DNA of 42,360 nucleotides from Chloroflexota bacterium (GTDB lineage: Bacteria; Chloroflexota; Dehalococcoidia; UBA2979): assembly GCA_009839925.1 (NCBI GenBank), contig VXOS01000152.1, forward strand, positions 1 through 42,360, read 5' to 3'. The position numbers were made by a program, and so were the translations under genes. Below, one piece after another: positions 8,139 to 37,514 of this stretch. The notes under the pieces were generated by a model that had not been told where the DNA came from, ran no database searches, and saw only the letters and a program-made list of their open reading frames with translations. Every line of letters starts with the position of its first letter. Position 1 is the stretch's first letter.

Positions 8139-9875
8139 ATGCTCAGTAACGAGCACATCCGCTACGAGCCCGACGAGCGCCCTCCATCCCCGCTGACGCT
8201 CACCGTGGCGTCGCAAGGCATGGTGCTGGCCCTCTCGAACACGGTCACGATCGTGACCATCTTCGCCGTCGCATACAACGACGACGGGAGCTACCTCGCC
8301 TGGGCCATCTTCGCCGCCCTGATCATCGCCGGCCTCGCCATCGCCCTCCAGGCCACGACGCTCGGACGGTTGGGCCCCGGCCACATCCACCTGATGGGCC
8401 CCGGCGCTCCCTTCCTGGCGGTGTGCGTGCTGGCCGTCAACGAGGGCGGACTGGCGCTCATGTCGACCCTCGTCGTGGCATCGTCGCTGGTTCAGTTCGC
8501 GGTCGCTGCCTGGCTCGCGCGACTGCGGCGGCTGATCACGCCCGTCGTCACGGGCGTCGCGTTCATGATGATCCCCGTCACCGCGATCCCGATCGCGATC
8601 GACCGGCTGGACGAGGTGCCGGCCGGCGTGGAGCCGGGGGCAGGTCTGGCGGTCGGTGCCGCGACGCTGGGCACGGTGGCGCTCCTGATGCTGCGCGGTT
8701 CGGGCCTGTGGCGTCTGTGGGCGATGCCGATAGCGATCGTCGTGGGGTGCGCCGTCGCGGTGCCGCTCGGGGTGTACGACGCCCGGGAAGCGCTCGACGC
8801 CCCGTGGTTCGCACTCCCCGATTTCTCGGCGTGGCCGGGCTTCGGCCCCGTGCTGGACGAGGACTTCTGGGCGCTGCTGCTCGTGTTCTTCATCGTGAGC
8901 GCCGTGGTGGCCGTCAAGGCCAGCAACGAGGGCGCCGTGATTCAGCAAGCCTCGCGGCGCCGCCCGCGCAGCATCGACTTCCGTGGCGTGCAGGGGACGA
9001 TGAACGTCGGCGGGGTCGCGATCCTGCTCTCGGGCATCGCCGGAACGCCGCCCACGATCATCTATCTGCCCTCCACCATCGCGCTGATCGGATTCACGGG
9101 GGTGGCCGCGCGCCGGGCCGGCATCTACATGGGGGCGATGCTGATCGGGCTGGCCCTGCTGCCGAAGGTCGTCGCCGTGCTGCTCACGATTCCTCGGTCG
9201 GTGACCGGGGCGCTGCTGATGATGGTCATGGGCCTGCTCTTCGTCGAAGGGATGCGCACCGTCTTCCGGGACGGGCTCAACCAGCAGCGCGCCTTCATCG
9301 TGGGCGTCTCGCTCTCGATCGCGATTGGCTTGCAGAGCCAGAACGTCCTCGCGGAGGTCATCGGCGGCCCCTGGGGCGTGGCGCTCGGCAACAGCGTGGT
9401 GGTCGGCGTGCTCGCCGCCGTGGTGATGACCGTCGTCCTCGAGATCACCGCCGCCCGCCAGAGGCGGCTGGAGACCGAGCTGGACGCCTCGGCCTTCCCC
9501 GGAATCGAGACGTTCCTGCGCGAGCTCGGTTCCGCCATGCGCTGGAACCAGGCCTCGACCGACCGGCTGTGCGCGGCGGGCGAGGAGACGCTGTCCACCA
9601 TGCTGCAGCTGCGCGACGACTACGAGGCCGACAAACCGCCGCGGCTCGTGCTGATCGCGCGTCCCGGGACCGAGGCGGTCGAGCTGGAGTTCCTGGCGGT
9701 GTTCTCGGAGGAGAACATCGAAGACCGCATTGCGTACATCAGCGAGCAGGCCGAGACGCCGGAGGTGGGCGACATCTCGTTCCGCCTGCTGCGCCACTAC
9801 GCCTCGTCCGTACGCCATCGGAAGTACTACGGCGTCGACATCGTCGCCGTGCAGATCGAGGGCTCGCGCCAGTGA
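8139..9875 (+). CDS. NCS2-type (xanthine/uracil) permease with extra C-terminal GHKL-like domain
   Basis: At 578 residues this is about 130 longer than usual NCS2 nucleobase permeases. Residues about 20-430 are strongly hydrophobic with around 12-14 membrane spans. The segments TPVVTGVAFMMIPVTAI and LSGIAGTPPTIIYLPS, followed by IGFTGVAARRAG, match the conserved NCS2 core in position and character. Residues about 445-578 are soluble: WNQASTDRL, AGEETLSTM, NIEDRIAYIS and ISFRLLRHYASSVRH. This tail resembles the C-terminal half of RsbW/anti-sigma GHKL domains but lacks a clear DxGxG nucleotide motif; that assignment is inference. A paralogue with the same layout lies at 24232. No good ribosome site is seen at ATG 8139. 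Confidence 0.8.
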   Translation: MLSNEHIRYEPDERPPSPLTLTVASQGMVLALSNTVTIVTIFAVAYNDDGSYLAWAIFAALIIAGLAIALQATTLGRLGPGHIHLMGPGAPFLAVCVLAVNEGGLALMSTLVVASSLVQFAVAAWLARLRRLITPVVTGVAFMMIPVTAIPIAIDRLDEVPAGVEPGAGLAVGAATLGTVALLMLRGSGLWRLWAMPIAIVVGCAVAVPLGVYDAREALDAPWFALPDFSAWPGFGPVLDEDFWALLLVFFIVSAVVAVKASNEGAVIQQASRRRPRSIDFRGVQGTMNVGGVAILLSGIAGTPPTIIYLPSTIALIGFTGVAARRAGIYMGAMLIGLALLPKVVAVLLTIPRSVTGALLMMVMGLLFVEGMRTVFRDGLNQQRAFIVGVSLSIAIGLQSQNVLAEVIGGPWGVALGNSVVVGVLAAVVMTVVLEITAARQRRLETELDASAFPGIETFLRELGSAMRWNQASTDRLCAAGEETLSTMLQLRDDYEADKPPRLVLIARPGTEAVELEFLAVFSEENIEDRIAYISEQAETPEVGDISFRLLRHYASSVRHRKYYGVDIVAVQIEGSRQ

Positions 9876-21960: not shown

Positions 21961-22270
21961 TGGGGTGGCCGCCTGCGGCCCCTCGCGCCGGCTCGTCCCA
22001 GGACAACCGTTATCCGCCTGAGCGCGACGAACTCCTGCGTGAGGGTGGCGTTGTCGTCTCCTGCGTCCCCCTACTCCGCACCACTTCCCCGGACGCTACT
22101 CAGTGCAAGAAAGTACGGGAGTCATACGAAAATGAAGGTCTTCTTGACACAGGTATCACACAGTCCGCAAGGTATCATCCGCTGGTCCGGCAATACGGTC
22201 CGGAAACAGCACGGATTACCCGGCGCGCACGCTGCGCGGTGGGTGGAGTCCGACAGCAAGGAGGTCCGGA
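21961..22270 (+). promoter_or_regulatory. 310-base leader of the polyketide operon, with direct repeats
   Basis: No gene is seen here. The stretch 22100-22180 is clearly poorer in GC than its surroundings. It contains TTGACA (22144-22149), a TATCAT (22173-22178), the direct repeat AGGTATCA at 22151-22158 and 22170-22177 (19 bases apart), and GGTCCGG at 22184-22190 and 22197-22203 (13 apart). A third copy of GGTCCGG overlaps the ACP ribosome site (22263-22269). TTGACA to TATCAT is 23 bases, too long for a simple promoter, so an activator-dependent promoter is possible. Paired heptamers are the kind of site used by SARP or LuxR-type activators, but the period differs from the 11 or 22 bases usual for SARPs. 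Confidence 0.5.
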
Positions 22271-22516
22271 GTGGCATCGAACGAAGAGCGTCTGATCAGC
22301 CTTCTCGACGAGAACCTGACGATCGAAGGGCGGAACGCGGGCGATCCGATCGACCTCGATCGCAATATCGCCGAGGCCGGGGTGTCTTCCCAGGACATTG
22401 CGGCGTTTCTGAGACTCGTGAACGAGGAATTCGGCACCTCGATCTCGGCCGGCGACTGCGGCGACCTGCTCACCCCGCGCAGCCTCCTGGAGTACGTGGA
22501 CGCGAACGCGGCCTGA
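22271..22516 (+). CDS. Stand-alone acyl carrier protein
   Basis: This protein has 81 residues, starting at GTG 22271 behind a near-perfect AGGAGGT site, which suggests high expression. Helical ACP pattern: helix 1 (ERLISLLDENLTI), loop with IDLDRNIAEAG, then VSSQDIAAFLRLVNEEFG, where Ser40 takes the phosphopantetheine position of the usual DSL motif (here SSQ), and a last helix SLLEYVDANAA. It is acidic, as ACPs are. It is the first gene of the polyketide operon, followed by a phosphopantetheinyl transferase. Because the PKS ends in a KS without its own ACP, this protein may act as that module's carrier in trans; this is inference. Confidence 0.8.
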   Translation: MASNEERLISLLDENLTIEGRNAGDPIDLDRNIAEAGVSSQDIAAFLRLVNEEFGTSISAGDCGDLLTPRSLLEYVDANAA

Positions 22517-22569
22517 CCACGACAGTCGCCTGCCAGCCGCCGGAACGTGCCGAAGCTCGGACGTTCCCT

Positions 22570-23286
22570 GTGGCTCCGGTTCGAGCGCCCTGGTGGCGGC
22601 ACTACACCAGGGTCGGCTCGGCCACGGTTCTGCACGTCGACCTGGCTCCGGACCCGGAGCGAGAGTGGGCCGCGCTCGCTTGCCTGGATGAAGGCGAGCT
22701 GGCTCGGTGGAGCCGGTTCGTATACTCCGGACCACGTCGCCAGTTCGTCTTGAGCCGGGCCGCGGTCCGCGCCGTGCTCTGCGCGGAACTCGGGTGCAGG
22801 AATGACGAGTTGGCGTTCGGGGTCTCGCCGCACGGTAAGCCCTTCGCCAGGGTACGGGACCGGCAAGCCGACATCAGCTTCAGTGTCAGCCATGGCGGCT
22901 GGCACGGCCTGATCGCAATAGCACCTGGGGGACGCCTGGGCGTCGATATCGAGGAACGCGTGGAGCGCCGCAGGCTCGACCTGCTCATCGAGGCGGCCCT
23001 GGGCGAGGAGGAAACCGCCGAGGTGACCTCGGCGACCGGTTCTGAGCAGCTCCACCTGTTCTTCAAGCTCTGGACGATGAAGGAAGCCCTCGTAAAGGCT
23101 CACGGTCTTGGCATGGGGCTGGACGCGACCACGTTCGAGATCCCACGGGGAATGCGCCGCATGGACGTCAGCGGCACGCTAGTGTTACCACAGATGCCGG
23201 ACGTCACGTGGCGCCTGGAAGACCTGGGCGAGGAGCGCTTCGCGGCGGCGATCGCCCACGAGCTTGCTCCCGAAGCCAGACCGTAG
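22570..23286 (+). CDS. 4'-phosphopantetheinyl transferase, Sfp type
   Basis: This protein has about 238 residues from GTG 22570; the start is uncertain because no strong ribosome site is visible and the frame is open far upstream, overlapping the ACP gene. Sfp-type motifs are clear: FGVSPHGKPFA, SFSVSHGGWHG, the Mg-binding GVDIEERVERRR and FFKLWTMKEALVKAHG. Such enzymes attach phosphopantetheine from CoA to carrier-protein serines, here the free ACP (Ser40) and the PKS ACP (Ser1786). It follows the ACP gene by about 53 bases and precedes the hydrolase by 15. The Sfp class, rather than AcpS, fits a secondary-metabolite role. Confidence 0.92.
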   Translation: MAPVRAPWWRHYTRVGSATVLHVDLAPDPEREWAALACLDEGELARWSRFVYSGPRRQFVLSRAAVRAVLCAELGCRNDELAFGVSPHGKPFARVRDRQADISFSVSHGGWHGLIAIAPGGRLGVDIEERVERRRLDLLIEAALGEEETAEVTSATGSEQLHLFFKLWTMKEALVKAHGLGMGLDATTFEIPRGMRRMDVSGTLVLPQMPDVTWRLEDLGEERFAAAIAHELAPEARP

Positions 23287-23301: not shown

Positions 23302-24210
23302 GTGACGAGGTCGGACGCGATTTGGGAGCTGCCGGAGCCAAGCTCGACGCTGGACGTCCCGGTCGGCGACGACACCGTTATCACCCTCCGGCGTCACGGG
23401 AACCCCGCTGGACCGAGGCTGGTCCTGAGCCACGGCAGTGGCCTGGCCATCGACCTGTACTACCCGTTCTGGTCCCTGCTGACGGACGACTTCGACCTGA
23501 TCGTCTACGACCTGCGGAACCACGGGCGCAATGCACTGGGTCCGCTCGCGGGTCACCATGTCCCGGCACTGGCACGGGATCAGGATCTCGTGTTCGCCGC
23601 CATCGACGCCCACTACGGCAAAGAGCCCAAGATCGGCGTGTACCACTCCGTCTCATCGCTGGTGACGCTGCTGGCGCCCAGCAACGGCAGCGAGCTGGCG
23701 GCCCTCGTCATGTTCGATCCTCCGCTTCGAAAGCCGGGGTTCACACGCGAGGAGTACGACGAAGCATCCCTTCGCAATGCGGCAATGGCACGAGAGCGGA
23801 TGCGCCACTTCGCCAGCAGGAAGATCCTGGCCGACCTCGCGGTGCTCTCCCCCAACTTCCGGCACGTGGTGCCGGGTGTGCTTGAACTCCTGGCCGAGAC
23901 GACGCTCCGCCAGAACCCGTCCGGAGATGGATACGAGCTGAGTTGCCCCCCGGAGTACGAGGCTCAGCTGATGGAGTACGGGCGGATCTATGCGGTCGGC
24001 GTGGACCTGCTGGGCTTCGACTGCCCGCTCAAGGTCATTGGCGCGGATCCGACGCTTCCGTACGCGTTCCTTCCCACAATGGATCTCTCGGAGATGGTGG
24101 GAGTGAACTATGACTTCCTCCCGGACGCGACGCACTTGCTGCAACTGGAGCAGCCGGAGAACTGTGTTGCCCTGATGCTCGAGTTCCTCGAGGAGCAGCG
24201 AATCATCTAG
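23302..24210 (+). CDS. Alpha/beta hydrolase
   Basis: This protein has 302 residues; GTG 23302 follows GGAGG. Alpha/beta-hydrolase features are the oxyanion loop LSHGSG (about 42-47), VYDLRNHGRN and a C-terminal THLLQLEQPE carrying the likely catalytic His. The nucleophile elbow reads GVYHSVSSLV, with Ser116 in H-S-V-S-S rather than GxSxG, which is unusual. Its place between the phosphopantetheinyl transferase and the transporter of the polyketide operon suggests release, editing or modification of the acyl product, since the PKS has no thioesterase domain. A purely tailoring lactonase or esterase role is equally possible. Confidence 0.8.
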   Translation: MTRSDAIWELPEPSSTLDVPVGDDTVITLRRHGNPAGPRLVLSHGSGLAIDLYYPFWSLLTDDFDLIVYDLRNHGRNALGPLAGHHVPALARDQDLVFAAIDAHYGKEPKIGVYHSVSSLVTLLAPSNGSELAALVMFDPPLRKPGFTREEYDEASLRNAAMARERMRHFASRKILADLAVLSPNFRHVVPGVLELLAETTLRQNPSGDGYELSCPPEYEAQLMEYGRIYAVGVDLLGFDCPLKVIGADPTLPYAFLPTMDLSEMVGVNYDFLPDATHLLQLEQPENCVALMLEFLEEQRII

Positions 24211-24231: not shown

Positions 24232-25971
24232 ATGGCAGCGGCAGGCGTCAACGAGCAGCTGCAGTACGAGCCGCAGGAGTCGTGCCCGCCGCTGCTCGCG
24301 CTCAGCGTCGGGCTCCAGGGCGTCGTGCTGGTGCTGGCGCCGACGGTGCTGATCGTGGCCATCACCGTCCGGGCGGCGAGCCAGGACGAGGGCTACCTGA
24401 CATGGGCCGTGTTCGCCGCCCTGATCATCAACGCGATCATCACCGCGCTGCAGGCCAACCAGTTCGCACGAATGGGAGCGGGGCTGGTGGTGATCACCGG
24501 TCCCACCATCCAGTTCGTCGTCGTGACCGCCGCCGCCATCGCGGAGGGCGGGCCGGCGCTCATGGCCAGCCTGATGCTGGTCTCCTCGCTCTTCCAGTTC
24601 GCGCTGGCGGCCTGGCTGCCGTTCCTGCGCCGGATCATCACTCCCGTCGTCTCGGGCACCGTCTTGATGCTGATCGCCGTCACCGTCGTGCCGGTCGCGT
24701 TCGCACGGCTGGCGGAGGTGCCCGACGGCGCCCCGGCGGGCGCCGGGCCCGTGGTCGCGCTCGCGACGCTCGTCGCCTCGACGGTGCTGGCGTTGCGCGC
24801 GACCGGCGCGTGGAGGCTCTGGTCGGCGTTCATCAGCATCGGGGTCGGCACCGCGATTGCCGCGGCCTTCGGGATCTACGACCTGCAGCGAGTGATCGAT
24901 GCGCCGTGGCTCGGCATCCCGGAGGCGCAGTTCCCGGGCGTCGATCTCACCCCCGGCGTGGAGTTCTGGGCGCTCCTCCCCACGTTCGCGATCCTCACGC
25001 TCGTGCTCGGCATCAAGGTCATCAGTGACTGCATGATCATCCAGCAGGCGTCGCGCCGCGAGGCCCGAGCCGTCGACTTCCGCCAGATCCAGGGCGCGGT
25101 GAACGCGAACGGCGTGGGCATGGTGCTGGCCGGCATCGCCGGGACGCCCCCGACGTTCGCGTACTCCTCGTTCAGCGTCTCGCTGATCAGCCTCACGGGC
25201 GTGGCGGCGCGGCGCGTCGGCTACGCGATCGCCGCGATCTTCCTCGTGCTGGCGTTTTTCTCCAAGTTCGCCGCGCTGCTGCTCAGCATTCCCGATCCCG
25301 TGATGGGGGCCTACCTCCTGCTGGTTCTGGGGCTGTTCTTCGTCGGCGGCATGCAGACGGTCGTCCGCGACGGGCTCGACGCGCAGAAGGTCCTCGTGGT
25401 CGCGCTGGCGTTCGCGGTCGGCCTCCGTGTCGACGGGCAAGACATCCTCGTCGACGCGTTCGGGGAGACGCTGGGGAGCCTGCTCGGCAACGGCGTGATG
25501 GCTGGTACGGCTGTCGCCATCCTGCTCACGGCGTTCATCGAGTGGACCAATCCCCGCCCCGAGCGCCTTCGCGCCGAACTCGGCATGGCGGCGCTGCCGC
25601 GCATCGACGAGTTCCTCCGTGGCGTGGCGGCGGGCCTGAACTGGAACGAGGCGTCAACGGAGCGCCTGCGCTCGGCGGGCGAGGAGACGCTGTCCACCCT
25701 CGTCATGTCCGAGGACGGCCGGTCGACGACCGGCGAGGCAAGGCTCACCGTCACCGCGCGCCCCGCGGGCGCGGCCGTTGACCTGGAATTCGTGGCGGCA
25801 ACAGACCAGGAGAACCTCGAAGACCGCATCGCCTACCTGAGCACCGAGTTACAGATCCCCGAGCCGAACGAGATTTCGCTCCGGCTGCTGCGGCACTACG
25901 CGTCCGCGGTCCGGCATCAGAAGTACCATGGCCTCGACATCGTCACCGTACGAGTCGAGGGATCTGCGTAG
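24232..25971 (+). CDS. NCS2-type permease with extra C-terminal GHKL-like domain (PKS operon)
   Basis: This protein has 579 residues, a paralogue of the permease at 8139 with the same two-part layout. ATG 24232 follows GGGAGAAG. Residues about 20-430 form the multi-span membrane core (ITPVVSGTVLMLIAVTV and LAGIAGTPPTFAYSS, ITGPTIQFVVV). Residues about 445-579 carry WNEASTERL, AGEETLSTL, NLEDRIAYLS and ISLRLLRHYASAVRH, nearly the same as in the first copy. NCS2 proteins are proton or sodium symporters for purines and pyrimidines. A natural-product operon location suggests uptake or export linked to the polyketide, or regulation through the soluble domain. The PKS start codon lies 88 bases after its stop. 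Confidence 0.8.
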   Translation: MAAAGVNEQLQYEPQESCPPLLALSVGLQGVVLVLAPTVLIVAITVRAASQDEGYLTWAVFAALIINAIITALQANQFARMGAGLVVITGPTIQFVVVTAAAIAEGGPALMASLMLVSSLFQFALAAWLPFLRRIITPVVSGTVLMLIAVTVVPVAFARLAEVPDGAPAGAGPVVALATLVASTVLALRATGAWRLWSAFISIGVGTAIAAAFGIYDLQRVIDAPWLGIPEAQFPGVDLTPGVEFWALLPTFAILTLVLGIKVISDCMIIQQASRREARAVDFRQIQGAVNANGVGMVLAGIAGTPPTFAYSSFSVSLISLTGVAARRVGYAIAAIFLVLAFFSKFAALLLSIPDPVMGAYLLLVLGLFFVGGMQTVVRDGLDAQKVLVVALAFAVGLRVDGQDILVDAFGETLGSLLGNGVMAGTAVAILLTAFIEWTNPRPERLRAELGMAALPRIDEFLRGVAAGLNWNEASTERLRSAGEETLSTLVMSEDGRSTTGEARLTVTARPAGAAVDLEFVAATDQENLEDRIAYLSTELQIPEPNEISLRLLRHYASAVRHQKYHGLDIVTVRVEGSA

Positions 25972-26059
25972 CGATGGACGGAAGCGAGTAGGATCGATGG
26001 GCGAGACCAGCGAACCTGCCCGTATGCCGTTCAGCGCGCGTGACGGCGGAGGAGCCGCA

Positions 26060-29000
26060 ATGACCGAGCCGCTGGCGATCATCGGCATGGCCTGTCGCTT
26101 CCCCGGCGCGCCGGACCTCGATGCGTACTGGGCGCTGCTCGAGGAGGGCCGCAACGCCGTCACCAGGTCCATCCCCGGGTCCGGGGTCGGACGTACCAGC
26201 GACGCATTCGGGGAGCGCGAGAGCGCGAGCGAGCTCGCCCGCTTCGGCGGCTTCCTGACCGACGTCGACCTGTTCGATGCGGCGTTCTTCCGGATGTCTC
26301 CACTCGAGGCACAGATCGTGGATCCACAGCAGCGGCTGACGCTGGAGACGACCTGGCGGGCGCTGGAGGATGCGGGGCTGAACCCCGATCGACTCAGGGG
26401 CACGCGCACCGCCGTATTCACGGGCGTCAGCAACATGGAGTACCGCGAGGTGGTCTTCCGGGCGCTGGATCAGTCGCCGGAGTCCGTCGGGCGCGCGGCC
26501 AGGCTCTACGCCAACCTCAGCACCAACCTCAACGGCATCAGCGGCCGGCTTGCCTTCCTGCTCGGCCTCGAGGGCCCGGCGATGGCGGTGGACACCGCCT
26601 GCTCGTCCTCGCTGGTCGCCACGCACGAGGCGGCCATGGCGCTGCAACACGGGGAGGCGGACCTCGCCGTCGTCGCCGGGGTCAACCTCATCCTGGACCC
26701 GCGCCGCTCCGAGTCGTACGCGGAGGCGGGGACACTCTCGCCGGAGGGCCAGTGCAAGGCGTTCGACGCCTCGGCGGACGGCTGGGTGCGCGGCGAGGGC
26801 TGCGGCGTCGTCGTCTTGAAGCGGTTGAGCGACGCGGTTGCCGATGGAGATCGTGTCTGGAGCGTGCTTCGCGGCTCGGCCGTCAACCACGACGGCGCCA
26901 GCACGAACTACGCGGCGCCGAACGACCTCGCACAACGGAGGGTCTTCCGTGAAGCGCTGGCCAGGGCCGGCGTTGCGCCGGCCGAAGTGGACTACGTTGA
27001 GGCGCACGGGACGGGAACGCCTGTCGGCGACCCGATCGAGCTCTCCGCCGTGGCGGCGGTGTACTCGGAGGGGCGCGACCCCGAACGCCCGCTGCTCATC
27101 GGGTCCGCGAAATCCAACCTCGGCCACCTGGAACCGGCTGCCGGCGTGGCCGGCCTCATCAAGACCGTGCTCGCTGTCCACCACGGGGTGATCCCCCGTC
27201 ACCTGCACTTCGAAACCCCGAACCCGGCGATCGATTGGAATCTGCCGGTACGGGTGGCTGCGGAAACCACCGCCTGGCCGGATCGGCCGGGTAACCCACG
27301 GCTGGCAGGAGTGAGTTCGTACGGAATGACGGGCACGAACGCACACGTCGTCCTCGAGGGCTACCAGGACGCCGAGGCCGAGCCCAGCATCGAGCCGGGG
27401 CGGCCGACCAGCGTCGCCAGTCGTGTCACGGTTGCGCTCCCGGAACCCTTCGCTGATCTCGACCTGCCGGAGGGGTCCGTCAGCAAGCGGTCCCCCCGGA
27501 TCCTCCCGCTGTCGGGCAGGGACGAGGCCTCACTCCGCGAACTCGCCGAGAGCTACGTGTCCTGGCTCGATCGCACGCCGGCGACGGACACCACGCTCCC
27601 GGACATTGCCTGGACGGCGGGCGTCGGCCGCAGCCACTTCAGCCATCGCGCGGCCCTGCTCTTCCCCGACGCGGAGTCCCTGAGCGAGCAGCTGACCGCA
27701 CTTGCGGATGGCGCCACGAGAGTGAGGCCGGGCTCGGCGAGCAAGGTGGCCTTCGCGTACACCGGGCAGGGCAGCCAGTGGCTCGGCATGGGCCGGGACC
27801 TCTACGAAACCGAACCGATCGCGCGGGCCGTGATGGACCGCTGCGAGGCCGTGCACCTCGATGAACGGGGCAAGTCTCTCCTCGACGTCATGTTCGGCGG
27901 CGAGAGCGCCAGGCCGCTCCTCGACCAGACCGACTGGGCTCAGCCCGCCCTCTACGCGCTCGAGTGTGCGATGACGGCGCTGTGGGCGAGTGTCGGGGTC
28001 CAACCCGATGTCGTGATCGGGCACAGCTTCGGTGAGCTGCCCGCTGCGCAGGCGGCGGGCGTGTTCAGCCTCGAGGATGGCATGCGACTGGCGATCGTTC
28101 GCGGCCAGCTCATGTTCGACACCGAGCCGGGAGCGGGGGTGGCCATCTTCGCCCCGCGCGCGGACGTCGAAGCGGCCATCGAGGAGATCAACGCCGTATC
28201 CGAGCGTGGCCTGCTCGGCATTGCCTCCGACAACGGCCTCAATCAGGTCGTGACCGGCCTCGCGGACGAGGTCGACGCGATCTCGGCGCACTTCGAGGCA
28301 CAGGAGATTCGTGCACGACGCATGGATTTCGCACGGGCCGCCCACAGCCCGCTCCTGGACCCGATGCTGCCAGAGCTCGAGGCGTCCGCGAACGCAATCG
28401 ACGTCGAACCACCGGGGGTGGAGTTCGTCAGCAACATCGACGGCGAAGCCATAGACGCGGGGGTCGCGCTGGACGGCGCGTACTGGAGACGGCACGTGCG
28501 CCAGCCCGTCGCGTTCGCGGACAGCGTCAGGACCCTGTCAGACCTCGGCGTGGACACGGTGATCGAGATCGGGCCGCACGCCGTGCTCGGGCCGATGATC
28601 AGCATGATCTGGCCGCAGCCGCCGGGCACTCCCGGGTCAGTAGTCGCCATTCCCAGCATGCAGCGTCCCGAGGTGCGGGGCGGGACGGAGGCGGCCAGCG
28701 GATTCACCGAGGCAGTCGCCGAGGCGTACACGGCCGGCCTCGATGTCTCGTTCGAAGGTCTGTTCACGGGCGAGGAGCGACGCCGCATCTCGATCCCCGG
28801 ATACCCGTTCCAGCGCAGCTCCTACTGGTTCAAGGCGCCCCGGCAGCGACGTACGGCCGTCGGCCATCCGCTGCTCGGCCTGCGACACGAGTCGCCGAAC
28901 GGCGAGATCTCTTTCGAGTCCGAGATCGAGCCGTCCGACCCGCCGTGGTTGCAGGAGCACCGCGTGTTTGGGCGCGTGGTGGCGCCGGGCGCGTTGTACA

Positions 29001-32000
29001 GCGCGCTGGCGGCCTCGGCGCTGCTGTCCGAGGGCGCCACCGTGCTCATTGATGACCTGCAGCTGTTCAGTCCGCTGATCTTCCCGGAAGGCGCCGAGGG
29101 CGAGGAGCTGAGCCGTCGGCTGCAGATCATCGTCGGGCGGCCGGACGAGCACCAGCGCCGGCACGTTGAGATCTTCAGCAAGGGCGCCGACACGGACTGG
29201 ACGCTGCACGCCAGGGGCAGCGTCCCGGCGACGGCTCCGCTGGACGGAGCGGGGGCCTCGATCGATGTCGAAGCGGCGAAGGCCCGCATGACTCCCGGCG
29301 ACCCGCGAGAGCTGTACCGCGCGAGAGGCAGCGTCGGAGTCGAGCTTGGCCCGCCCTTCCGCGGGCTGACCGCGCTCTGGCAGGGGCAGGGTGAGGCGCT
29401 TGGGGAGATCGCCCTGCCGAGCCTGGTGGACCCGAACGGGATCGAGGTCCACCCGCTGCTGCTGGACGCCTGCTCCCAGGTCATGTCGGCGGGCCGCAGC
29501 ACAGCCGAAGGCGACACGACCGTCTACATGCCGTTCGGCTGGGAGCGGCTCTGGCTGAACGGTCCCTTGCCCGACCGCCTGGTCTGCCGGGCGGAGCTGC
29601 GCGATGCAGGCGCCGGCGCGAGCGTGTCCGACGAGCCGGCCGAGGTGCTGAAGGCCGACCTCTGGATTTACGACGAGGATGGCGTCGCCATCGGTGAAGC
29701 CAGCGGCTTCACGGTGAAGCGCGCGACGCGCGCAGCCCTTCTGGCTGCGTTGGACACGACCGATGACCTGATGCACGAGGTCGTCTGGCGCGAGCGCCCC
29801 CTCGGCGAGTCGGAGCAGGCGGCGGAGCCCGCCGAGCGCGACGAGGCCGGCGGCGACTCGCCCGGCTTGTGGATTCTCGCGGCCGACCACGGCGGCGTCG
29901 CCGATCGAATTGCCGCAGCACTGACTACGCGCGGCCAAACAGTAGTCCTGGCCGGCGATGCAGCCGTGGATGCGAGCAGCCGCGAGTCCTGGCGGTCGCT
30001 GATCGAGGGGCTGCCCGAGGGCGCGCCGTTGCGCGGCGTCGTGCACCTCGCGGCGCTCGACGGGCACGGCGCACGTGCCAGTACCGAGCAGCTGCAGGAC
30101 GACGTCACGCGCGGCATCGGGAGCGCCCTCGCGCTCGTCCAGGGACTGCTCGACGCGGACGCTTCCCCGCAAGACGGCGCCTGGTTCGTGAGCCGCGGCG
30201 GACAGGTGCTGCACGAGGAGCAGCGTGGCGAGCTCGCCGGCGCGATGCTCTGGGGCTTCGGCAAGGTAGTCGCGCGCGAACTTGCCCAGCTGCCGGCCCA
30301 CATCATCGACCTCGATCCGGACGAAGCCGAGATCCCCGACGCTCTCATTGACGAGCTGCTCAACCCCGACCGGGAAGAACTCGTCGCCTACCGGGCGGGG
30401 ACCCGGTACGTGCAACGGATCGTGCGAGGCAGGGACGGCGCCGCGCAGGCGCCGCCGCCCGACGACGCGGCCAGTCGCGTTCGCGGCGACCGCACCTACC
30501 TCGTAACGGGCGGGCTCGGCGGCGTCGGCGGCGCGACGGCCGGGTGGCTCGCGGACAACGGCGCCCGGACGATCGTCCTCAACGGACGTCGCGCGCCAGG
30601 GGACGCCGCCGAGGAGGTCATCCGCGCGCTGCGCGAGCGCGGCGTCGAGGTGCACGTGGAGCTGGCCGACGTCGCGGACGCGGAGCAGCTGCGCGCGCTG
30701 ATCGCGCGCATCGACGCGAACCTCCCGCCGCTCGGCGGCGTGGTCCACAGCGCGGTGGCCCTGTCGGACGGCGCGCTCATCAACCAGACCTGGGCCGGGT
30801 TCGAGGAGGCGATCTGGGCGAAGGTGCTCGGAGGCTGGGAGCTGCACCGCCAGACGGAGCACCGCGACCTCGACCTCTTCATCCTCTACACGAGCATGGC
30901 GGGGGTGCGCGGCAATCCCGGGCAGTCCAACTACGCAGCAGCGAACACATTCTGCGACGAGCTGGCGCGGCACCGGCGCGCGCTCGGTCTGCCCGGCCAG
31001 TCCGTCCAGTGGGGAGCCTGGGGAACCGTCGGCGGCGGCGAGCAGCGACGCGATCGGATCGAGAGCGTGGTAGAAGCCTCCGGCTACGACTGGATGACCC
31101 CGGCGCAGGGCATCCGCGCGCTCGATCGACTCGTGCGAGAGGACCTCGCGGTCGCCGGGGTCACGTTGATCGACTGGGACGTCTACGCGGCCTCGCTGCG
31201 CACCGTCCCGCCGCTCATCGAGGAACTGCTGTCCGCACCGACGCAGTCCGATGGAGACGAGGCGGCCGAGGATCTGATCTCGCGCCTGCGCGAGGCGCCC
31301 GAACAGCAGCGCTACGGGATCGTCGAGGAGGCCCTCCAGGGCTTGCTCCAGGACCTGCTGCGAATGCCCTCGCCGCCGGATCCCAGCGTCACGTTCTTTG
31401 ATCTCGGTCTCGACTCGCTCATGGCGCTGGAGCTGCGGGCGCGGCTCAACCTCGCCCTCGGTGGCGCGCACACGGTCTCCAACACGATCGCCTTCGACTA
31501 CCCCGACACGGCGAGTCTCGCCGGGCACCTCGTCGAGGTGCTGGACAGCGAGGGCGAGCAGGCCCCGCAGCCGGCAGCGCTGCCCGCGGCGCCCCGCCCG
31601 CCACGGCAAACCGCGGAGGACGCGATCGCCATCGTCGGCATGGCCTGCAAGTTCCCGGGCGCGGACGACCTCGCGGCCTTCTGGGAGCTCCTCGAAGCGG
31701 GCGCGAGCGGTGTCAGCGACGCACGCAACGGCTCCGGCCCCTGGGCCGACTTCTTCGGCGACGCCGCTGCGGGTGATGACCCGTATCGCCGCGCGGGCTT
31801 CGTGGAGGGCGTCGATCAGTTCGACGCCTCGTTCTTCCGCATCTCGCCCATCGAGGCGCGGAATATGGACCCGCAGCTGCGGATGCTGCTCGAGACGACC
31901 TGGCACGCCCTCGAGGATGCGGCCATCGATCCCGACTCGCTGCGGGGCAGCCGCACCGGCACCTACGCCGGGATCGGGCTCGGCGAGTACCGCGACGTGA

Positions 32001-34111
32001 TGACCCTGCGCGGCAAGCCGATCGGCTACGTCGGCATCAACGGCAGCACGTCCATTGGCCGCGTGGCCTTCACGCTCGGGCTCGAGGGGCCGGCGCTGCC
32101 GGTCGAGGTCGCCTGCGCGTCCTCGCTGGTCGCCGTGCACCACGCCGTGACGGCGCTGCGCAACGGCGAGATCAACCTCGCGCTCGTCGCCGGCGTGAAC
32201 GCCGCGCTCTCACCGGATGCGACGCTCAAGATGGCCGAGCTCGGGATGCTCTCGTCCGGGGGCGAGTGCCGGGCGTTCAACGCCGGGGCGGACGGGTTCA
32301 TCCGCGGCGAGGGCTGCGGCGTCGTGGTCCTCAAGCGCCTGAGCGAGGCGCTGGAGGACGGTGACCGCATCTGGGCCGTCGTCCGGGGCTCGGGCGTCAA
32401 CCAGAGCGGCGTCAGCGCCGGCCCGACGGCGCTGAGCGGACTGGCCCAGCAGCACGTGATTGAGCAGGCGCTGTCGAGCGCCGGCGTCGATCCGGCGGAC
32501 GTCGACTACCTCGAGGCGCACGGAACCGCCTCCGAACTGGGAGATGCGATCGAGCTCGAGGCCGCGGCGGCCGTCTACGGCCGCGGGCGCGAAACGGAAC
32601 GCCCACTGCTCGTGGGGTCGGTCAAGACCAACATCGGCCACATCGAGTCGGCGTCGGGGATGGCCGGCCTGATCAAGACGGTGCTTTCGATGCAACGCGG
32701 GATGATCCCCGCTCACCTGCACTTCCGGGAACCCTCGCCGCACGTCGAGTGGGAGCGGCTGCCGCTGCTGGTGACCGACTCGGCCACCGAGTGGCCGCAG
32801 CGCCCCGACCGGGAGCCGCTGGCGGCAGTGAGCGCCTTCGGCATCACGGGAGCCAACTCCCACGTCATCGTGGAGGGCTATACATCGGATGCGCCCGCTC
32901 CGGGGACGTGGGCTCCCGGAGCGCCGCAGCCCGTCGCACTGCCCTCGCCTGACGGCGCGGAGCTACCCGCGCCGTCCGAGGTCGGGGGCGCCACGCGCCT
33001 CCTGCCGCTGTCGGCCAAGTCGCACGATGCCCTGCGCGACCTCGCGCGCGACTACCTCGTGTGGATCGGGACGCCGGAGGGCGCACCGTCCGAGTCGACG
33101 CTGGCGGATGCCGCGTGGACGGCGGGGGGCGGGCGCAGCCACTTCTCCCACCGCGCCAGCGTGGTGTTCACCGACGCAGGCACGCTTCGCGATGGCCTGC
33201 ACGCGATCGCGGACTCCACCGACAGCCCCGAGCCGCAGGCAGCCCGGCGCGTCGGCTTCGCCTACGACGCCGGACGGGTCGCCCCCTCGGCGGCCCGGGC
33301 GCTGTACGGCAGCGAGCCCGTCGTGCGGGCAGTCCTCGACCGCTGCGAAGAGGTGTTCCAGGCCGAACGCCAGGCCTCGCTGCTCGGCGCGCTGTTCAGC
33401 GATGACGCGCCCGACAGCGCTGAGGATGCGGCGTGGCGAGAGCCCGCCGACTATGCGCTGCAGTGCGCGCTGACGGCCCTCTGGTCGAGCGTGGGGATCC
33501 GGCCCGATGCCGTGCTGGGGCACGGCGTCGGGGAGCTGGCGGCGGCGCAGGCCGCCGGGGTCGCCAGCCTCGAGACCGGGCTGCGCCTCGCAATCGCTCG
33601 CGCGGGCCTGGCGCAGGACAACGGCGAGAGCCCCGACGCAGACTCCGCGCTGGCCATGTTCGAGGCGGCTTTCGGCGGTACTTCGCCATCGCGGGCGTCG
33701 ATCCCGGTCGTGAGCAGCGAGACCGGGGAGCCCGTCGGCGCGAACACGACGCTCGACGCGGCCTACTGGCTGCGCCAGGCGCGACTGCCGGCGAGCGCCG
33801 CCGACGGCTCGGACGGGCTCGGCGGGCTGGGCGTGGACGTTGTGGTGGACATCGGAGCGAACGGACGCTCCCCCGGACGCGGCGGCCGACCACGACGCCG
33901 CACCCACGATGATCCCGAGCCTCGTGGACGGGCCGGAGGCGGCGTTGAGCCCTCGGAGGCTTTCGTGCGGGCGGTGGCGCGGGCCTACGAGGCGGGACTG
34001 GACGTTTCGTTCGGCGGCCTGTTCGCGGGCGAGCTGCGGCGCCGCGTGGCGATTCCCGCTTACCCGTTCCAGCACCGCCGCTACTGGCTCGAGCCCGCCC
34101 GCCGAGGCTAG
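26060..34111 (+). CDS. Type I polyketide synthase, KS-AT-DH-KR-ACP-KS-AT(inactive)
   Basis: This PKS has 2683 residues; ATG 26060 (MTEPLAIIGMACRFPG) has GGAGGAG 6 bases upstream, whereas the open frame extends to 25928 inside the permease gene. KS1 (about 3-430) has Cys181, His316 (EAHGTGT) and His356 (NLGH). AT1 (about 560-890) has GQGSQ and Ser656 (GHSFGE); its specificity motif reads RAAH, neither the malonyl HAFH nor the methylmalonyl YASH type. DH (about 930-1230) has His967 in HRVFGRVVAPG and the pair Asp1136/Gln1140. KR has TGGLGGVG near 1480, Ser1612 and Tyr1625, and LSD near the B-type LDD position. ACP carries Ser1786 (GLDSL). KS2 (about 1852-2275) keeps Cys2019, His2154 and His2194. 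AT2 is dead. No ER or thioesterase. A reduced, unsaturated chain is expected, perhaps built iteratively. Confidence 0.93.
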   Translation: MTEPLAIIGMACRFPGAPDLDAYWALLEEGRNAVTRSIPGSGVGRTSDAFGERESASELARFGGFLTDVDLFDAAFFRMSPLEAQIVDPQQRLTLETTWRALEDAGLNPDRLRGTRTAVFTGVSNMEYREVVFRALDQSPESVGRAARLYANLSTNLNGISGRLAFLLGLEGPAMAVDTACSSSLVATHEAAMALQHGEADLAVVAGVNLILDPRRSESYAEAGTLSPEGQCKAFDASADGWVRGEGCGVVVLKRLSDAVADGDRVWSVLRGSAVNHDGASTNYAAPNDLAQRRVFREALARAGVAPAEVDYVEAHGTGTPVGDPIELSAVAAVYSEGRDPERPLLIGSAKSNLGHLEPAAGVAGLIKTVLAVHHGVIPRHLHFETPNPAIDWNLPVRVAAETTAWPDRPGNPRLAGVSSYGMTGTNAHVVLEGYQDAEAEPSIEPGRPTSVASRVTVALPEPFADLDLPEGSVSKRSPRILPLSGRDEASLRELAESYVSWLDRTPATDTTLPDIAWTAGVGRSHFSHRAALLFPDAESLSEQLTALADGATRVRPGSASKVAFAYTGQGSQWLGMGRDLYETEPIARAVMDRCEAVHLDERGKSLLDVMFGGESARPLLDQTDWAQPALYALECAMTALWASVGVQPDVVIGHSFGELPAAQAAGVFSLEDGMRLAIVRGQLMFDTEPGAGVAIFAPRADVEAAIEEINAVSERGLLGIASDNGLNQVVTGLADEVDAISAHFEAQEIRARRMDFARAAHSPLLDPMLPELEASANAIDVEPPGVEFVSNIDGEAIDAGVALDGAYWRRHVRQPVAFADSVRTLSDLGVDTVIEIGPHAVLGPMISMIWPQPPGTPGSVVAIPSMQRPEVRGGTEAASGFTEAVAEAYTAGLDVSFEGLFTGEERRRISIPGYPFQRSSYWFKAPRQRRTAVGHPLLGLRHESPNGEISFESEIEPSDPPWLQEHRVFGRVVAPGALYSALAASALLSEGATVLIDDLQLFSPLIFPEGAEGEELSRRLQIIVGRPDEHQRRHVEIFSKGADTDWTLHARGSVPATAPLDGAGASIDVEAAKARMTPGDPRELYRARGSVGVELGPPFRGLTALWQGQGEALGEIALPSLVDPNGIEVHPLLLDACSQVMSAGRSTAEGDTTVYMPFGWERLWLNGPLPDRLVCRAELRDAGAGASVSDEPAEVLKADLWIYDEDGVAIGEASGFTVKRATRAALLAALDTTDDLMHEVVWRERPLGESEQAAEPAERDEAGGDSPGLWILAADHGGVADRIAAALTTRGQTVVLAGDAAVDASSRESWRSLIEGLPEGAPLRGVVHLAALDGHGARASTEQLQDDVTRGIGSALALVQGLLDADASPQDGAWFVSRGGQVLHEEQRGELAGAMLWGFGKVVARELAQLPAHIIDLDPDEAEIPDALIDELLNPDREELVAYRAGTRYVQRIVRGRDGAAQAPPPDDAASRVRGDRTYLVTGGLGGVGGATAGWLADNGARTIVLNGRRAPGDAAEEVIRALRERGVEVHVELADVADAEQLRALIARIDANLPPLGGVVHSAVALSDGALINQTWAGFEEAIWAKVLGGWELHRQTEHRDLDLFILYTSMAGVRGNPGQSNYAAANTFCDELARHRRALGLPGQSVQWGAWGTVGGGEQRRDRIESVVEASGYDWMTPAQGIRALDRLVREDLAVAGVTLIDWDVYAASLRTVPPLIEELLSAPTQSDGDEAAEDLISRLREAPEQQRYGIVEEALQGLLQDLLRMPSPPDPSVTFFDLGLDSLMALELRARLNLALGGAHTVSNTIAFDYPDTASLAGHLVEVLDSEGEQAPQPAALPAAPRPPRQTAEDAIAIVGMACKFPGADDLAAFWELLEAGASGVSDARNGSGPWADFFGDAAAGDDPYRRAGFVEGVDQFDASFFRISPIEARNMDPQLRMLLETTWHALEDAAIDPDSLRGSRTGTYAGIGLGEYRDVMTLRGKPIGYVGINGSTSIGRVAFTLGLEGPALPVEVACASSLVAVHHAVTALRNGEINLALVAGVNAALSPDATLKMAELGMLSSGGECRAFNAGADGFIRGEGCGVVVLKRLSEALEDGDRIWAVVRGSGVNQSGVSAGPTALSGLAQQHVIEQALSSAGVDPADVDYLEAHGTASELGDAIELEAAAAVYGRGRETERPLLVGSVKTNIGHIESASGMAGLIKTVLSMQRGMIPAHLHFREPSPHVEWERLPLLVTDSATEWPQRPDREPLAAVSAFGITGANSHVIVEGYTSDAPAPGTWAPGAPQPVALPSPDGAELPAPSEVGGATRLLPLSAKSHDALRDLARDYLVWIGTPEGAPSESTLADAAWTAGGGRSHFSHRASVVFTDAGTLRDGLHAIADSTDSPEPQAARRVGFAYDAGRVAPSAARALYGSEPVVRAVLDRCEEVFQAERQASLLGALFSDDAPDSAEDAAWREPADYALQCALTALWSSVGIRPDAVLGHGVGELAAAQAAGVASLETGLRLAIARAGLAQDNGESPDADSALAMFEAAFGGTSPSRASIPVVSSETGEPVGANTTLDAAYWLRQARLPASAADGSDGLGGLGVDVVVDIGANGRSPGRGGRPRRRTHDDPEPRGRAGGGVEPSEAFVRAVARAYEAGLDVSFGGLFAGELRRRVAIPAYPFQHRRYWLEPARRG
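33250..34090 (+). other. Decayed acyltransferase domain at the PKS C-terminus
   Basis: Within the PKS, the second AT reads GHGVGE with Gly2489 in place of the catalytic Ser, and FAYDAGRVAPS in place of the GQGSQ region. About 85 residues corresponding to the small subdomain and the AT1 RAAHSP motif are missing. From about 33858 to 33950 the coded protein is Arg/Gly-rich, while another frame reads PTMIPSLVDGPEAA, which parallels AT1 VVAIPSMQRPEV. This indicates two compensating indels. Homology resumes at EAFVRAVARAYEAGLDVSF and the post-AT linker AYPFQHRRYWL ends the protein. Confidence 0.8.
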
Positions 34112-34205: not shown

Positions 34206-37200
34206 CTACTCCGGTTCCTCGAGGAACCCTGCGTCGGCGGGCTCGAGCAGCACGCCGGCGTCGACACGCTCGCGCGCCTCGGCGAGCGCCAGCTCGACCT
34301 CGGCGGGCGGTGGGCTCGCCAGCTCGCCGCTGCGCAGGAAGAGCAGGCCGGCGCTCGCCGGCTCGCCGACGGCGGCCTCAAGGGCGCGCTGGTAGAGCCC
34401 GATCTGCACGGCGTAGTGGCCCGCCGCCGCCTGCGTCGAGGTCCCATCCAGCCGGTCGCTCTTGAAGTCGATCACGTGCCAGCCGTCCGCGTCGCGGTAG
34501 ACGAGGTCGATGCTGCCGTGGACCGGCACGCCGTCCCAGTCCCAGGCGAAGGGCAGCTCGAACCAGCGCTCGACGTCCGGTGAGGACAGCGCGTCGGCGA
34601 CCGGCGAGCCCTCGTAGCGATCGAGCAGCTCCCGGACCTCGGTGGCCAGCGCCTCCGCCGTCGCGTCGTCGAGGGCGCGGTCGCTCTGCTCCCGGGCGAT
34701 CTCGACCAGCCGCTCGCCATCGAGGGAGTCGGGTGCGCCCCGGGAGACCTCGAGGGCGCGGTGCACGATCAGGCCGCGCAGCGCCGCCAGGCCGTCGCCG
34801 CGCCCGTAGTACTGCCGGTCGGTCTGCGGAGGGCGCAGCGCGGTGACGGGCGTGCTCGCGCGCAGCGGGATGACGGGCGGCCGCTCCAGCAGCGGCGGGA
34901 CGTAGTCCTGCTCCTCGGAGGCGGCGGGAGGCCGCAGGACCGGCGGGGGTTGCCGACGTGCGAGGGCGCTCGTGTCTGGTGGCAGCGGCTCGCGCAGCTC
35001 GATCTCACGCAGGGCGCCGCTCTCGTGCGCGTCGCGCACCGTGTGCAGCCAGCCGCGGCCGCCCGACGCGTCGCCGGAGATGTAGAGGTAGTCACCCGCT
35101 CGCATCGCCGCGACGTAGAACAGGCGCCGGTGCTCTTCCGCGTCCTCCGTCTGATCCTGTTGCTGCAGGTGCGCGTAGAAGCCGGGGCGGGGCCGCCTGT
35201 CGTCGTCCTCGTCACGCTCCAGTGTGACGGAGACGCCGTCCTCGCGATGCCAGCGGACCGCGTCCCAGGTCGCCAGCGAGGCGACGTGCGCCTCCGGCAC
35301 GAAGACGATCGGGAACTCAAGGCCCTTCGCACCGTGCACCGTCATCAGCTGCACCGCGTCCGGGCGGTCGAGCGTGGCCGGCCCCTCGTGCGGGTCGAGG
35401 TCGTCGCGACGTTGCTCGAGGTAGGAGACCACCTCGGAGAGCGGGTGCCCGGCCAGGGTGCGCACGATGCGCAGCAGCTTGCGGATGTTCGCGCGGGCCT
35501 GCTCGCCGCCGGCGAGCGGCGCCCACGATGCCTCGAAGGCGCTGCGCTCCAGCGCCAGCTCGAGCAGCGCGTCGGCCGGCAGCGAGGCGGCGGCGCGGCG
35601 CAGCCCGGCGAGCGTCTCGGCAGCGTGCGCGCAGCGCGCGCGGTCTTGGCCGCCAACCTCCGAGGGCGGATCGGCGAGCGCCGCCCGGAGCCGCCTGCCC
35701 CGCTCGCGGCGCAGCGCGAGCAGGGTGTCGTCGGCGAGGGCGAAGAAGGGCGAGCGCAGCACGCCGCTGAGCGCGAGCTCGTCCTGCGGCTCCGCCAGCC
35801 AGCGCAGCAGGTTGATGCAGTCGAGCACCTCCTGCCGCGTGAAGAAGCCGGTGCCGCTCGGCGTCGCGGCCGCCACGCCGTGCGTGTTGAGGGCCTGCTG
35901 GAAGACGTGCACGTTGGCGAAGCGCCTCAGCAGGATCGCGATGTCGCCGGGCCGCGCCGGGCGCATCCGGTCGTCGTGCCGGTCCCAGACCAGCCGCCCT
36001 TCGTCGAGCAGTTCGGCGATCTCCCCCGCGACGGCGTCCGCCTCGACGCGTCGCCGGTCGTAGCCGGAAGCCCCGCCCGCGATCTGCGTCAGCGTGAGGT
36101 GCGGGCCGCCGGACGGCGCGGCGGCGGGGCGGCCCGTCATCGGTGGTAGCGCCGCGAGGTCCAGATCCGTCCCCTCGAAGACCTCGCCGAAGAGCTCGTT
36201 GATGCGGCTCACGAGGTCGTCGTGGCTGCGGAACGAGCGGCTGAGCGGGAGCAGCGGCCCACCGCGTGAGGCTACGAGGTCCTGCAGCGCGGTGAAGCGG
36301 TGCACGTCCGCGCCGCGGAAGCGGTAGATCGACTGCCGCGCGTCGCCGACGAGGAAGAGCGCCGGCCTCGCCCCGTCGCCGTTTCCGCCCGCGATCAGCT
36401 CAATCAGCTCCGCCTGCACCGGGTTGATGTCCTGCGATTCGTCGACCATCAGGTGGAGGAAGCGCCCGCGCACCGCGGCGGCCACGGCCGGGTGGTCGCG
36501 CAGCAGGTCGACGGCGCCCAGCTCCAGATCGAGGTAGTCGAGGGCGTTCTGTGCCTGCTTCGCCGCCTCGTAGCGTCGCACCGAGTCCTCGAAGAGCGCG
36601 CGCAGCCCGGCGAGCACCTCGAGGGCCGGCCCGTCGTGTTCGTTCCAGGCCGGCAGCTTTCCCGCATCGTCGTCGAGCTCGCGCAGGTCGCGCATCGCAT
36701 CCTTAACGCTTACGGCAGCCGGGGCGTTACCCCCGCTCTGGAGGTTGGTTTGCGATCGCGCCTCGGCGAGGAGAGCGGCGAAGTCCCCCCACTCCCCTGC
36801 CTCGCGGGCCGCGGTGAGCGGCTGAAGGACGGCGCCCGCCACCTCGGCGAGGCGCTCGGTCACGTTGCCGGCGTCGCGCCTGATCTGCCACGCGATCTCC
36901 TCGGCCTGTCCTCGGATCGCCGTCTGCCGAGGCTCGTAGTGCGCCTCGAGGGTGGCGCGCACGTACGAGGGCCAGTCGGCGCTGTACGCGCCCATCGCCG
37001 CGAAGGCGGCCCCGACGGCGTCGCGCTGCGCGACCATGCGCGGGAGCTGGAGGCCGGCGTGATAAACGCCGAGCCCGAGCAGCGCGCGGGTGCGCTCGCC
37101 GCCGACCTCGGCGGCCGCGTCGATCGCCTCGATGCAGGCGGCGCGGCGCAGCAGCTCCGCCTCGTCGTCGGCGAGGACGGCGGCCGCGGGGTCGAGACCC

Positions 37201-37514
37201 GCCTCGACGGGGTGCTCGCGCAGCAGGCGCAGGCCGAGCGAATGCACGGTCCCGATCGCCGCCTCGTCGAGCAGCGCGCGGTGCTGCTCCAGCGCGGGGT
37301 CCGACATCACTTCGCGGCGCACGCGGTCACGCATCTCCGCGGCGGCCGCCTCGGTGAAGGTGATCGCCGCGATCTGCGGGATCGAGCACTCGCGCAGCAG
37401 CTGCACGTAGCGCTCGACGAGCACGCGCGTCTTGCCGCTGCCCGCGCCCGCCGAGACCGCGAGGTCCGAGGCGTCCGCCTCGATGATCGTCCGCTGCTCG
37501 GCGGTCAGCTCCAC
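34206..37514 (-). CDS. addA: AddA-type helicase-nuclease (UvrD-like) subunit
   Basis: This protein has about 1102 residues from GTG 37514 (ELTAEQRTIIEADASD), chosen because GAGG lies 8 bases upstream; the open frame to 37991 reads into the upstream gene out of frame. Walker A SAGAGSGKT is at 21-29, followed by AITFTEAAAAEM. Walker B reads MVDESQD instead of the common DEFQD, and motif VI region is MTVHGAKGLEFP. The C-terminal nuclease shows VHGSIDLVYRD and VIDFKSDR plus QIGLYQRAL, a complete PD-(D/E)xK site. AddAB processes double-strand breaks for RecA recombination. The gene overlaps the AddB stop by 10 bases, so the two are translationally coupled. Confidence 0.9.
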   Translation of the reverse strand: MELTAEQRTIIEADASDLAVSAGAGSGKTRVLVERYVQLLRECSIPQIAAITFTEAAAAEMRDRVRREVMSDPALEQHRALLDEAAIGTVHSLGLRLLREHPVEAGLDPAAAVLADDEAELLRRAACIEAIDAAAEVGGERTRALLGLGVYHAGLQLPRMVAQRDAVGAAFAAMGAYSADWPSYVRATLEAHYEPRQTAIRGQAEEIAWQIRRDAGNVTERLAEVAGAVLQPLTAAREAGEWGDFAALLAEARSQTNLQSGGNAPAAVSVKDAMRDLRELDDDAGKLPAWNEHDGPALEVLAGLRALFEDSVRRYEAAKQAQNALDYLDLELGAVDLLRDHPAVAAAVRGRFLHLMVDESQDINPVQAELIELIAGGNGDGARPALFLVGDARQSIYRFRGADVHRFTALQDLVASRGGPLLPLSRSFRSHDDLVSRINELFGEVFEGTDLDLAALPPMTGRPAAAPSGGPHLTLTQIAGGASGYDRRRVEADAVAGEIAELLDEGRLVWDRHDDRMRPARPGDIAILLRRFANVHVFQQALNTHGVAAATPSGTGFFTRQEVLDCINLLRWLAEPQDELALSGVLRSPFFALADDTLLALRRERGRRLRAALADPPSEVGGQDRARCAHAAETLAGLRRAAASLPADALLELALERSAFEASWAPLAGGEQARANIRKLLRIVRTLAGHPLSEVVSYLEQRRDDLDPHEGPATLDRPDAVQLMTVHGAKGLEFPIVFVPEAHVASLATWDAVRWHREDGVSVTLERDEDDDRRPRPGFYAHLQQQDQTEDAEEHRRLFYVAAMRAGDYLYISGDASGGRGWLHTVRDAHESGALREIELREPLPPDTSALARRQPPPVLRPPAASEEQDYVPPLLERPPVIPLRASTPVTALRPPQTDRQYYGRGDGLAALRGLIVHRALEVSRGAPDSLDGERLVEIAREQSDRALDDATAEALATEVRELLDRYEGSPVADALSSPDVERWFELPFAWDWDGVPVHGSIDLVYRDADGWHVIDFKSDRLDGTSTQAAAGHYAVQIGLYQRALEAAVGEPASAGLLFLRSGELASPPPAEVELALAEARERVDAGVLLEPADAGFLEEPE

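Follow-up and report, generated by a model that had tools for sequence, protein, structure and literature searches.

Related transporters and anti-sigma factors

Transporters of the SLC26/SulP family are composed of a membrane domain and a cytosolic STAS domain, and the reason why these transporters carry STAS is a long-standing question. SLC26 and SLC23 share a 7+7 inverted-repeat architecture, deletion of STAS reduces SLC26 transport, and SLC4 and SLC23 have been said to hold no carboxy-terminal domain (PMC6497670). STAS antagonists are also the proteins that bind RsbW in partner switching (PMC8256260). In the NCS2/NAT permeases (UraA, XanQ, UapA, PbuX), the residues E356 and Q408 of UapA have been reported to be absolutely necessary for transport (PMC3405029).

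The DNA analysed here, a stretch of 42,360 nucleotides from a member of the Chloroflexota (contig VXOS01000152.1; the window), encodes permeases with a C-terminal tail that relate to all of these systems. With SLC26/SulP-STAS proteins they share a plan in which a cytosolic domain derived from partner switching is appended to a membrane domain of 7+7 inverted repeats, but the tailed permeases have the opposite, RsbW-like partner and a PF00860 membrane domain; no STAS domain was matched in the window permeases, the tail fold being GHKL. The likeness to the working mode of SLC26-STAS may be drawn as an analogy only. With the anti-sigma kinases RsbW, SpoIIAB and UsfX the tail shares fold, topology, the catalytic Glu and ancestry, and it differs from them in being fused to a permease, in having lost the N-box Asn, G1 and G2, and in usually having no adjacent STAS gene. 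The SLC5-STAC histidine kinases (CbrA, CrbS, RpuS) are transporter-GHKL-fold fusions as well, but the tailed permeases belong to a different transporter family, have no STAC, phosphoacceptor-helix or receiver domains, and their GHKL domain is inactive as judged by motif; the window permeases match PF00860/NCS2 models alone and lack the SLC5 domain joined to STAC and a histidine-kinase core that marks those kinases. From the NCS2/NAT permeases, with which the tailed proteins have the PF00860 fold, the length of the membrane part and a TM1 Gln in common, the window copies are set apart by a Lys in TM8, a replacement in TM10 and the added GHKL tail. Going by sequence, the tailed proteins are members of the PF00860 superfamily that fail the substrate-anchor features of the NAT/NCS2 nucleobase transporters. 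No description of this fusion architecture was found in the open-licence literature, and it may be annotated elsewhere.

Tailed permeases in the window and in its genome

A preliminary description of the window had reported two permease ORFs with a conserved tail of about 135 residues. Both are real and lie where they had been placed, and the motifs quoted for the tail are found in the sequence:

24232..25971, + strand: NCS2-superfamily permease with a C-terminal pseudo-GHKL domain, 579 aa (ORF; PF00860, 130.7 bits)
24301..25428, + strand: permease domain of this protein, PF00860 positions 4-382 (domain match)
25564..25968, + strand: its RsbW/SpoIIAB-type GHKL tail without ATP-site motifs, residues 445-579 (AlphaFold, Foldseek, motif loss)
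8139..9875, + strand: second paralogue, 578 aa, with Lys260 at the TM8 anchor (ORF; PF00860, 111.8 bits)
9465..9866, + strand: tail domain of the second paralogue (E 7e-42, 53% identity)

The curated cut-off of PF00860 is 27 bits. Between the two copies, the tails are 53% identical and the permease parts 45%. The conserved tail thus stood, whereas the count of two paralogues was too low, as the source genome, 2.86 Mb in 214 contigs, holds the tail six times, once with each of its six PF00860 permeases. In the sixth tailed permease (G000:C60:14249-15939; L011, L018, L088), permease and tail are in different reading frames, a split that marks a genuine pseudogene or is due to faulty assembly.

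Fold and ancestry of the tail

The window tail had no match in Pfam, NCBIfam, PHROGs or PDB sequence searches, and no profile match to HATPase_c_2 (PF13581) above the cut-off. Because these direct searches came back empty, homology was drawn from a structure model together with intermediate sequences. AlphaFold of the tail (14 tails) gave a pLDDT of 79.8 and a pTM of 0.75; two segments of the 141-residue construct, 59-62 and 101-109, were modelled with low confidence. The elements of the model follow the order strand-helix-helix-strand-strand-helix-helix-strand-strand, and there is no dimerisation/phosphoacceptor helix pair ahead of the GHKL domain. A Foldseek search of the PDB yielded 23 matches at E<=1e-3, of which the best was UsfX (8ih8; E 1.8e-8, probability 1.00); the top 19 are chains of UsfX, RsbW (6m37 with a TM-score of 0.85 by target length) and SpoIIAB (1th8, 1tid), and the RsbW domain of Rv1364c comes next.

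Divergent tails on the sister permeases (tree support 100/100) of the genomes G218, G388 and G319, which belong to one family in the window's own class, link the window tail to recognisable GHKL domains. The two intermediate tails that were scored against HATPase_c_2, those of G218 and G388, reached 45.2 and 36.4 bits at a cut-off of 27.4, and the HMM of window-type tails covers the G218 tail over model positions 6-133 of 135 (E 1.3e-5). When window-type tails, the intermediates and true RsbW proteins of Chloroflexota were compared profile to profile, the E values were 1e-6, 8.9e-7 and 7.6e-7, as opposed to 0.14 with an unrelated control. The earlier guess of an RsbW/GHKL-like fold is thus borne out, both by a model for which every leading PDB match is an anti-sigma factor and by intermediates that pass the HATPase_c_2 cut-off; the tail is almost certainly of GHKL/RsbW ancestry.

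A stretch of 25 residues that resembles the end of the tail (VRHQTFHRVDIVTVRVE; G388:C2:396365-396439) was seen at the end of a non-coding-looking frame (L084 1297-2142, - strand), and is either a remnant or due to chance.

ATP site, invariant residues and selection

When the tails are aligned to the genome's own RsbW (L050 1462-1881), 71 of the 72 main-clade tails have Ser, Ile, Thr, Val or Ala instead of the N-box Asn, none of the 72 retains the G1 Asp, and the last Gly of G2 has become Ser in every one of them. The Glu at the catalytic position is retained in every tail. The intermediate tails stand half-way, with a His in the N-box and with the G1 Asp and the G2 Gly retained. This loss of motifs makes it unlikely that window-type tails bind ATP.

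Invariant positions in 42 non-redundant tails are E484, E485, E519, N528, S549, L553, H562 and D569, and E530, D531, R551 and Y565 are nearly so. From the alignment, several of the invariant residues would sit in the N-box helix, in the post-G1/lid region and in G2, which is where the nucleotide used to be. In comparisons of close orthologues, the tail has pairwise dN/dS values of 0.06-0.20, similar to those of the permease, and as purifying selection on the two parts matches, the tail is not in functionless decay.

Distribution of the tail

A tail profile built from eight sequences (A1) matched in 32 of 400 sampled Chloroflexota genomes, which come from 8 of the 225 genera and from two classes or more. 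The tail-bearing genomes have 1-6 copies each, usually several, almost invariably within open frames that span roughly 570-700 aa, and the fusion is present in all paralogue groups of the tailed Chloroflexota branch. PF00860 genes occur in 173 of the same 400 genomes. In the 18 tail-bearing genomes that were checked, almost every PF00860 gene is tailed, the exceptions being contig-end fragments or partial matches and a 467-aa protein of G042, which we take to resemble the AzgA-type subgroup. Other Chloroflexota permeases that were checked end 35-67 residues past the permease domain; hidden tails in their long frames, which had been considered, were thereby ruled out, the frames being long because they extend upstream. 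A contig search with the full-length window protein gave seven loci, Chloroflexota throughout, and five remote permeases on PLSDB plasmids have no alignment past residue 433 and therefore no tail. It follows from this distribution that the tail is not common to NCS2 proteins in general, nor is it peculiar to one genome. The statement that usual NCS2 proteins lack it agrees with the other Chloroflexota permeases checked, and in the sampled Chloroflexota it is no ordinary family-wide extension.

Substrate anchors of the permease core

Two sites of the window permease correspond to known substrate anchors:

25015..25017, + strand: Lys262, which aligns with the TM8 substrate/proton anchor (UraA Glu241, XanQ Glu272, UapA Glu356) (alignments)
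25165..25170, + strand: Ser312-Ser313, where the NAT signature has Gln/Glu-Asn in TM10 (alignments)

In alignment with UapA, UraA and XanQ, the TM8 anchor is Lys262 in the 24232 copy and Lys260 in the 8139 copy. The 76 tailed proteins have Lys (39), Glu (25), Gln (9), Arg (2) or Tyr (1) at this position, and on the maximum-likelihood tree these types fall into few clades, with five changes overall. The TM10 Gln/Glu-Asn pair is altered in all 76, to a Ser/Pro-type or other pair, and the TM1 Gln (Q29) is retained as in NCS2/NAT permeases. Since the anchors in both TM8 and TM10 are replaced, it is doubtful that Lys-type proteins transport nucleobases. The positive charge at the TM8 site suggests an anionic substrate, and an anion in place of a neutral nucleobase may tentatively be considered for the Lys-type proteins.

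The PKS locus and other neighbours

The window copy at 24232 is flanked by genes of a polyketide pathway:

22039..23286, + strand: 4'-phosphopantetheinyl transferase (PPTase), ACPS domain at residues 300-405; the true start is probably downstream of the listed ORF start (domain match)
23302..24210, + strand: alpha/beta hydrolase, which stops 21 nt ahead of the permease ATG (domain match)
25928..34111, + strand: type I PKS, KS-AT-DH-KR-ACP-KS-AT; the listed ORF overlaps the permease stop

The gene order, all on the + strand, is PPTase, alpha/beta hydrolase, permease, type I PKS, and the true start of the PKS may lie later than listed because the KS starts at residue 47. A tailed permease adjoins homologues of the hydrolase (57-62% identity) and of the PPTase in ten other genomes from four families (f38, f49, f52, f87), and at nine of these ten loci a PKS is also present. 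The same PKS locus is found in a near relative of the window (L001), and in G042 the PPTase alone lies beside a tailed permease. At most of these loci in other genomes, permease and hydrolase are encoded on opposite strands and converge. In a scoring of 64 loci, where the neighbourhood extended to at most 6.5 kb, or less if the contig ended, the hydrolase, PPTase and PKS neighbours were found at 12 of 32 Lys-type loci versus none of 32 Glu-, Gln- or Arg-type loci. The recruitment of one copy to the PKS operon had thus been seen correctly and recurs in several families, with the qualification that the orientation varies and that L116 and L117, the nearest relatives of the window copy in other genera, are found away from the PKS locus. 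Isolate names of the contigs suggest sponge metagenomes as a source of the PKS-linked paralogue group.

Other neighbours were observed as well. Downstream of the PKS, the window encodes AddA-like (UvrD + PD-(D/E)XK) and AddB-like helicase-nuclease proteins (34206-40435, - strand). Beside the 8139 permease there are two adjacent family III CoA-transferases (10248-12880, - strand), and remote CoA-transferase matches (28-29% identity) lie near the Arg-type relatives of this copy in G218 and G388 (L104, L109). Near the second Lys-type clade, to which the C60 copy belongs, a sCache/dCache sensor protein is encoded (L096 5201-7216, - strand, and 11 more loci with the same ORF cluster).

Possible functions of the tail

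The reading that is somewhat favoured is that the tail is a regulatory domain of the transporter, a pseudo-GHKL domain. In a Chloroflexota branch of NCS2 (SLC23-fold), an RsbW/SpoIIAB-type GHKL domain was fused past the last transmembrane helix, and this domain later lost its ATP site, kept its fold and acquired new invariant polar residues. As a non-catalytic cytosolic module, the tail may recognise either a protein partner or a small ligand, the latter in what was once the nucleotide pocket and has since been remodelled, and such binding could be passed on to the permease's elevator movement, similar to STAS in SLC26. An anion transported by the Lys-type proteins might, for instance, belong to the neighbouring pathway, as a carboxylate or acyl-type compound that is either its precursor or its product. 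Full-length AlphaFold (14 sequences) reached a pLDDT of only 53.7, and because of this poor model the docking of the tail on the permease could not be judged.

Rather unlikely is a membrane-anchored partner switching, in which the tail binds a sigma factor or a STAS protein, and the permease is a substrate-responsive receptor (transceptor) that releases or captures this partner. The tail fold is identical to that of anti-sigma factors, and the genome holds a separate classical set of STAS protein, response-regulator/PP2C phosphatase and genuine RsbW (G000:C147:35344-37286), which adjoins a periplasmic ligand-binding-protein-like gene. A SulP-STAS domain is encoded on contig C94 of this genome. 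Moreover, in three f49 genomes a Glu-type tailed permease and a SulP protein with a STAS domain are encoded 1.5-9 kb apart, which places the two halves of the partner switch on neighbouring transporters:

G033:C2:10440-13864: SulP-STAS and tailed permease, f49
G117:C8:126301-132379: SulP-STAS and tailed permease, f49
G157:C77:27642-38055: SulP-STAS and tailed permease, f49

Signalling by transporter-GHKL fusions is known from the SLC5-STAC kinases such as CbrA (PMC7096432, PMC9100948). On fosmid pPS11G3 (ORF15-ORF19), a 557-aa 'permease' similar to SupE (ABE03914) is encoded beside anti-anti-sigma genes in the swf/sup PKS region of a sponge symbiont (PMC3908369), and it may belong to the family of the tailed transporters and have its STAS partner next to it. 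A STAS gene was sought beside the tailed permeases, but it is no regular neighbour and is absent there in most genomes, and the idea of an adjacent STAS partner was dropped as such a neighbour is not conserved; most copies have no conserved partner gene (STAS, PP2C or sigma, of which STAS was the one tested) next to them. Partner switching by phosphorylation would also need the kinase motifs that are gone, and it would need partners for each of the two to six paralogues per genome.

It is unlikely, too, that the tail is a structural module only, whose RsbW-like dimerisation would stabilise the permease dimer without any sensing. RsbW and SpoIIAB are dimers, and the fold has been kept. SLC23 proteins are dimers themselves (PMC6497670). 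The most conserved residues, however, are polar and lie in elements of the former pocket and not across a hydrophobic interface, which argues against a purely structural module.

The preliminary description had also considered nucleotide sensing, and an active sensor in which ATP or ADP binding gates transport by energy charge would agree with the GHKL ancestry, with the invariant catalytic Glu, and with the G1 Asp and G2 Gly of the intermediates. As N-box Asn, G1 Asp and G2 Gly have all been lost from window-type tails, a nucleotide-binding sensor is unsupported and very improbable. A vestigial tail without function, for which the missing catalytic motifs could speak, can practically be dismissed in view of a purifying selection on par with that of the permease and of residues that are invariant across paralogues of 40-50% identity.

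Implications

Returning to the regulatory pseudo-GHKL domain, a far-reaching and most speculative version of it is a mirror image of SLC26, in which the RsbW half as regulatory domain would dock STAS, either of SulP or of free anti-sigma antagonists, and in which the PKS-linked copies would gate the export or uptake of an anionic product of the pathway. If this were true, two transporter families and a sigma circuit would share one switch.

More generally, the tailed permeases represent a sister transporter fold with an independently acquired and then inactivated RsbW, which would permit a direct comparison to SLC26-STAS, and both domains, STAS and the RsbW-like tail, are open to deletion, swapping and assay. 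The tailed permeases have replaced residues that were thought indispensable for NCS2 transport and may thus serve to test a substrate change within this fold, and one of their paralogue groups is linked to a recurrent polyketide locus.
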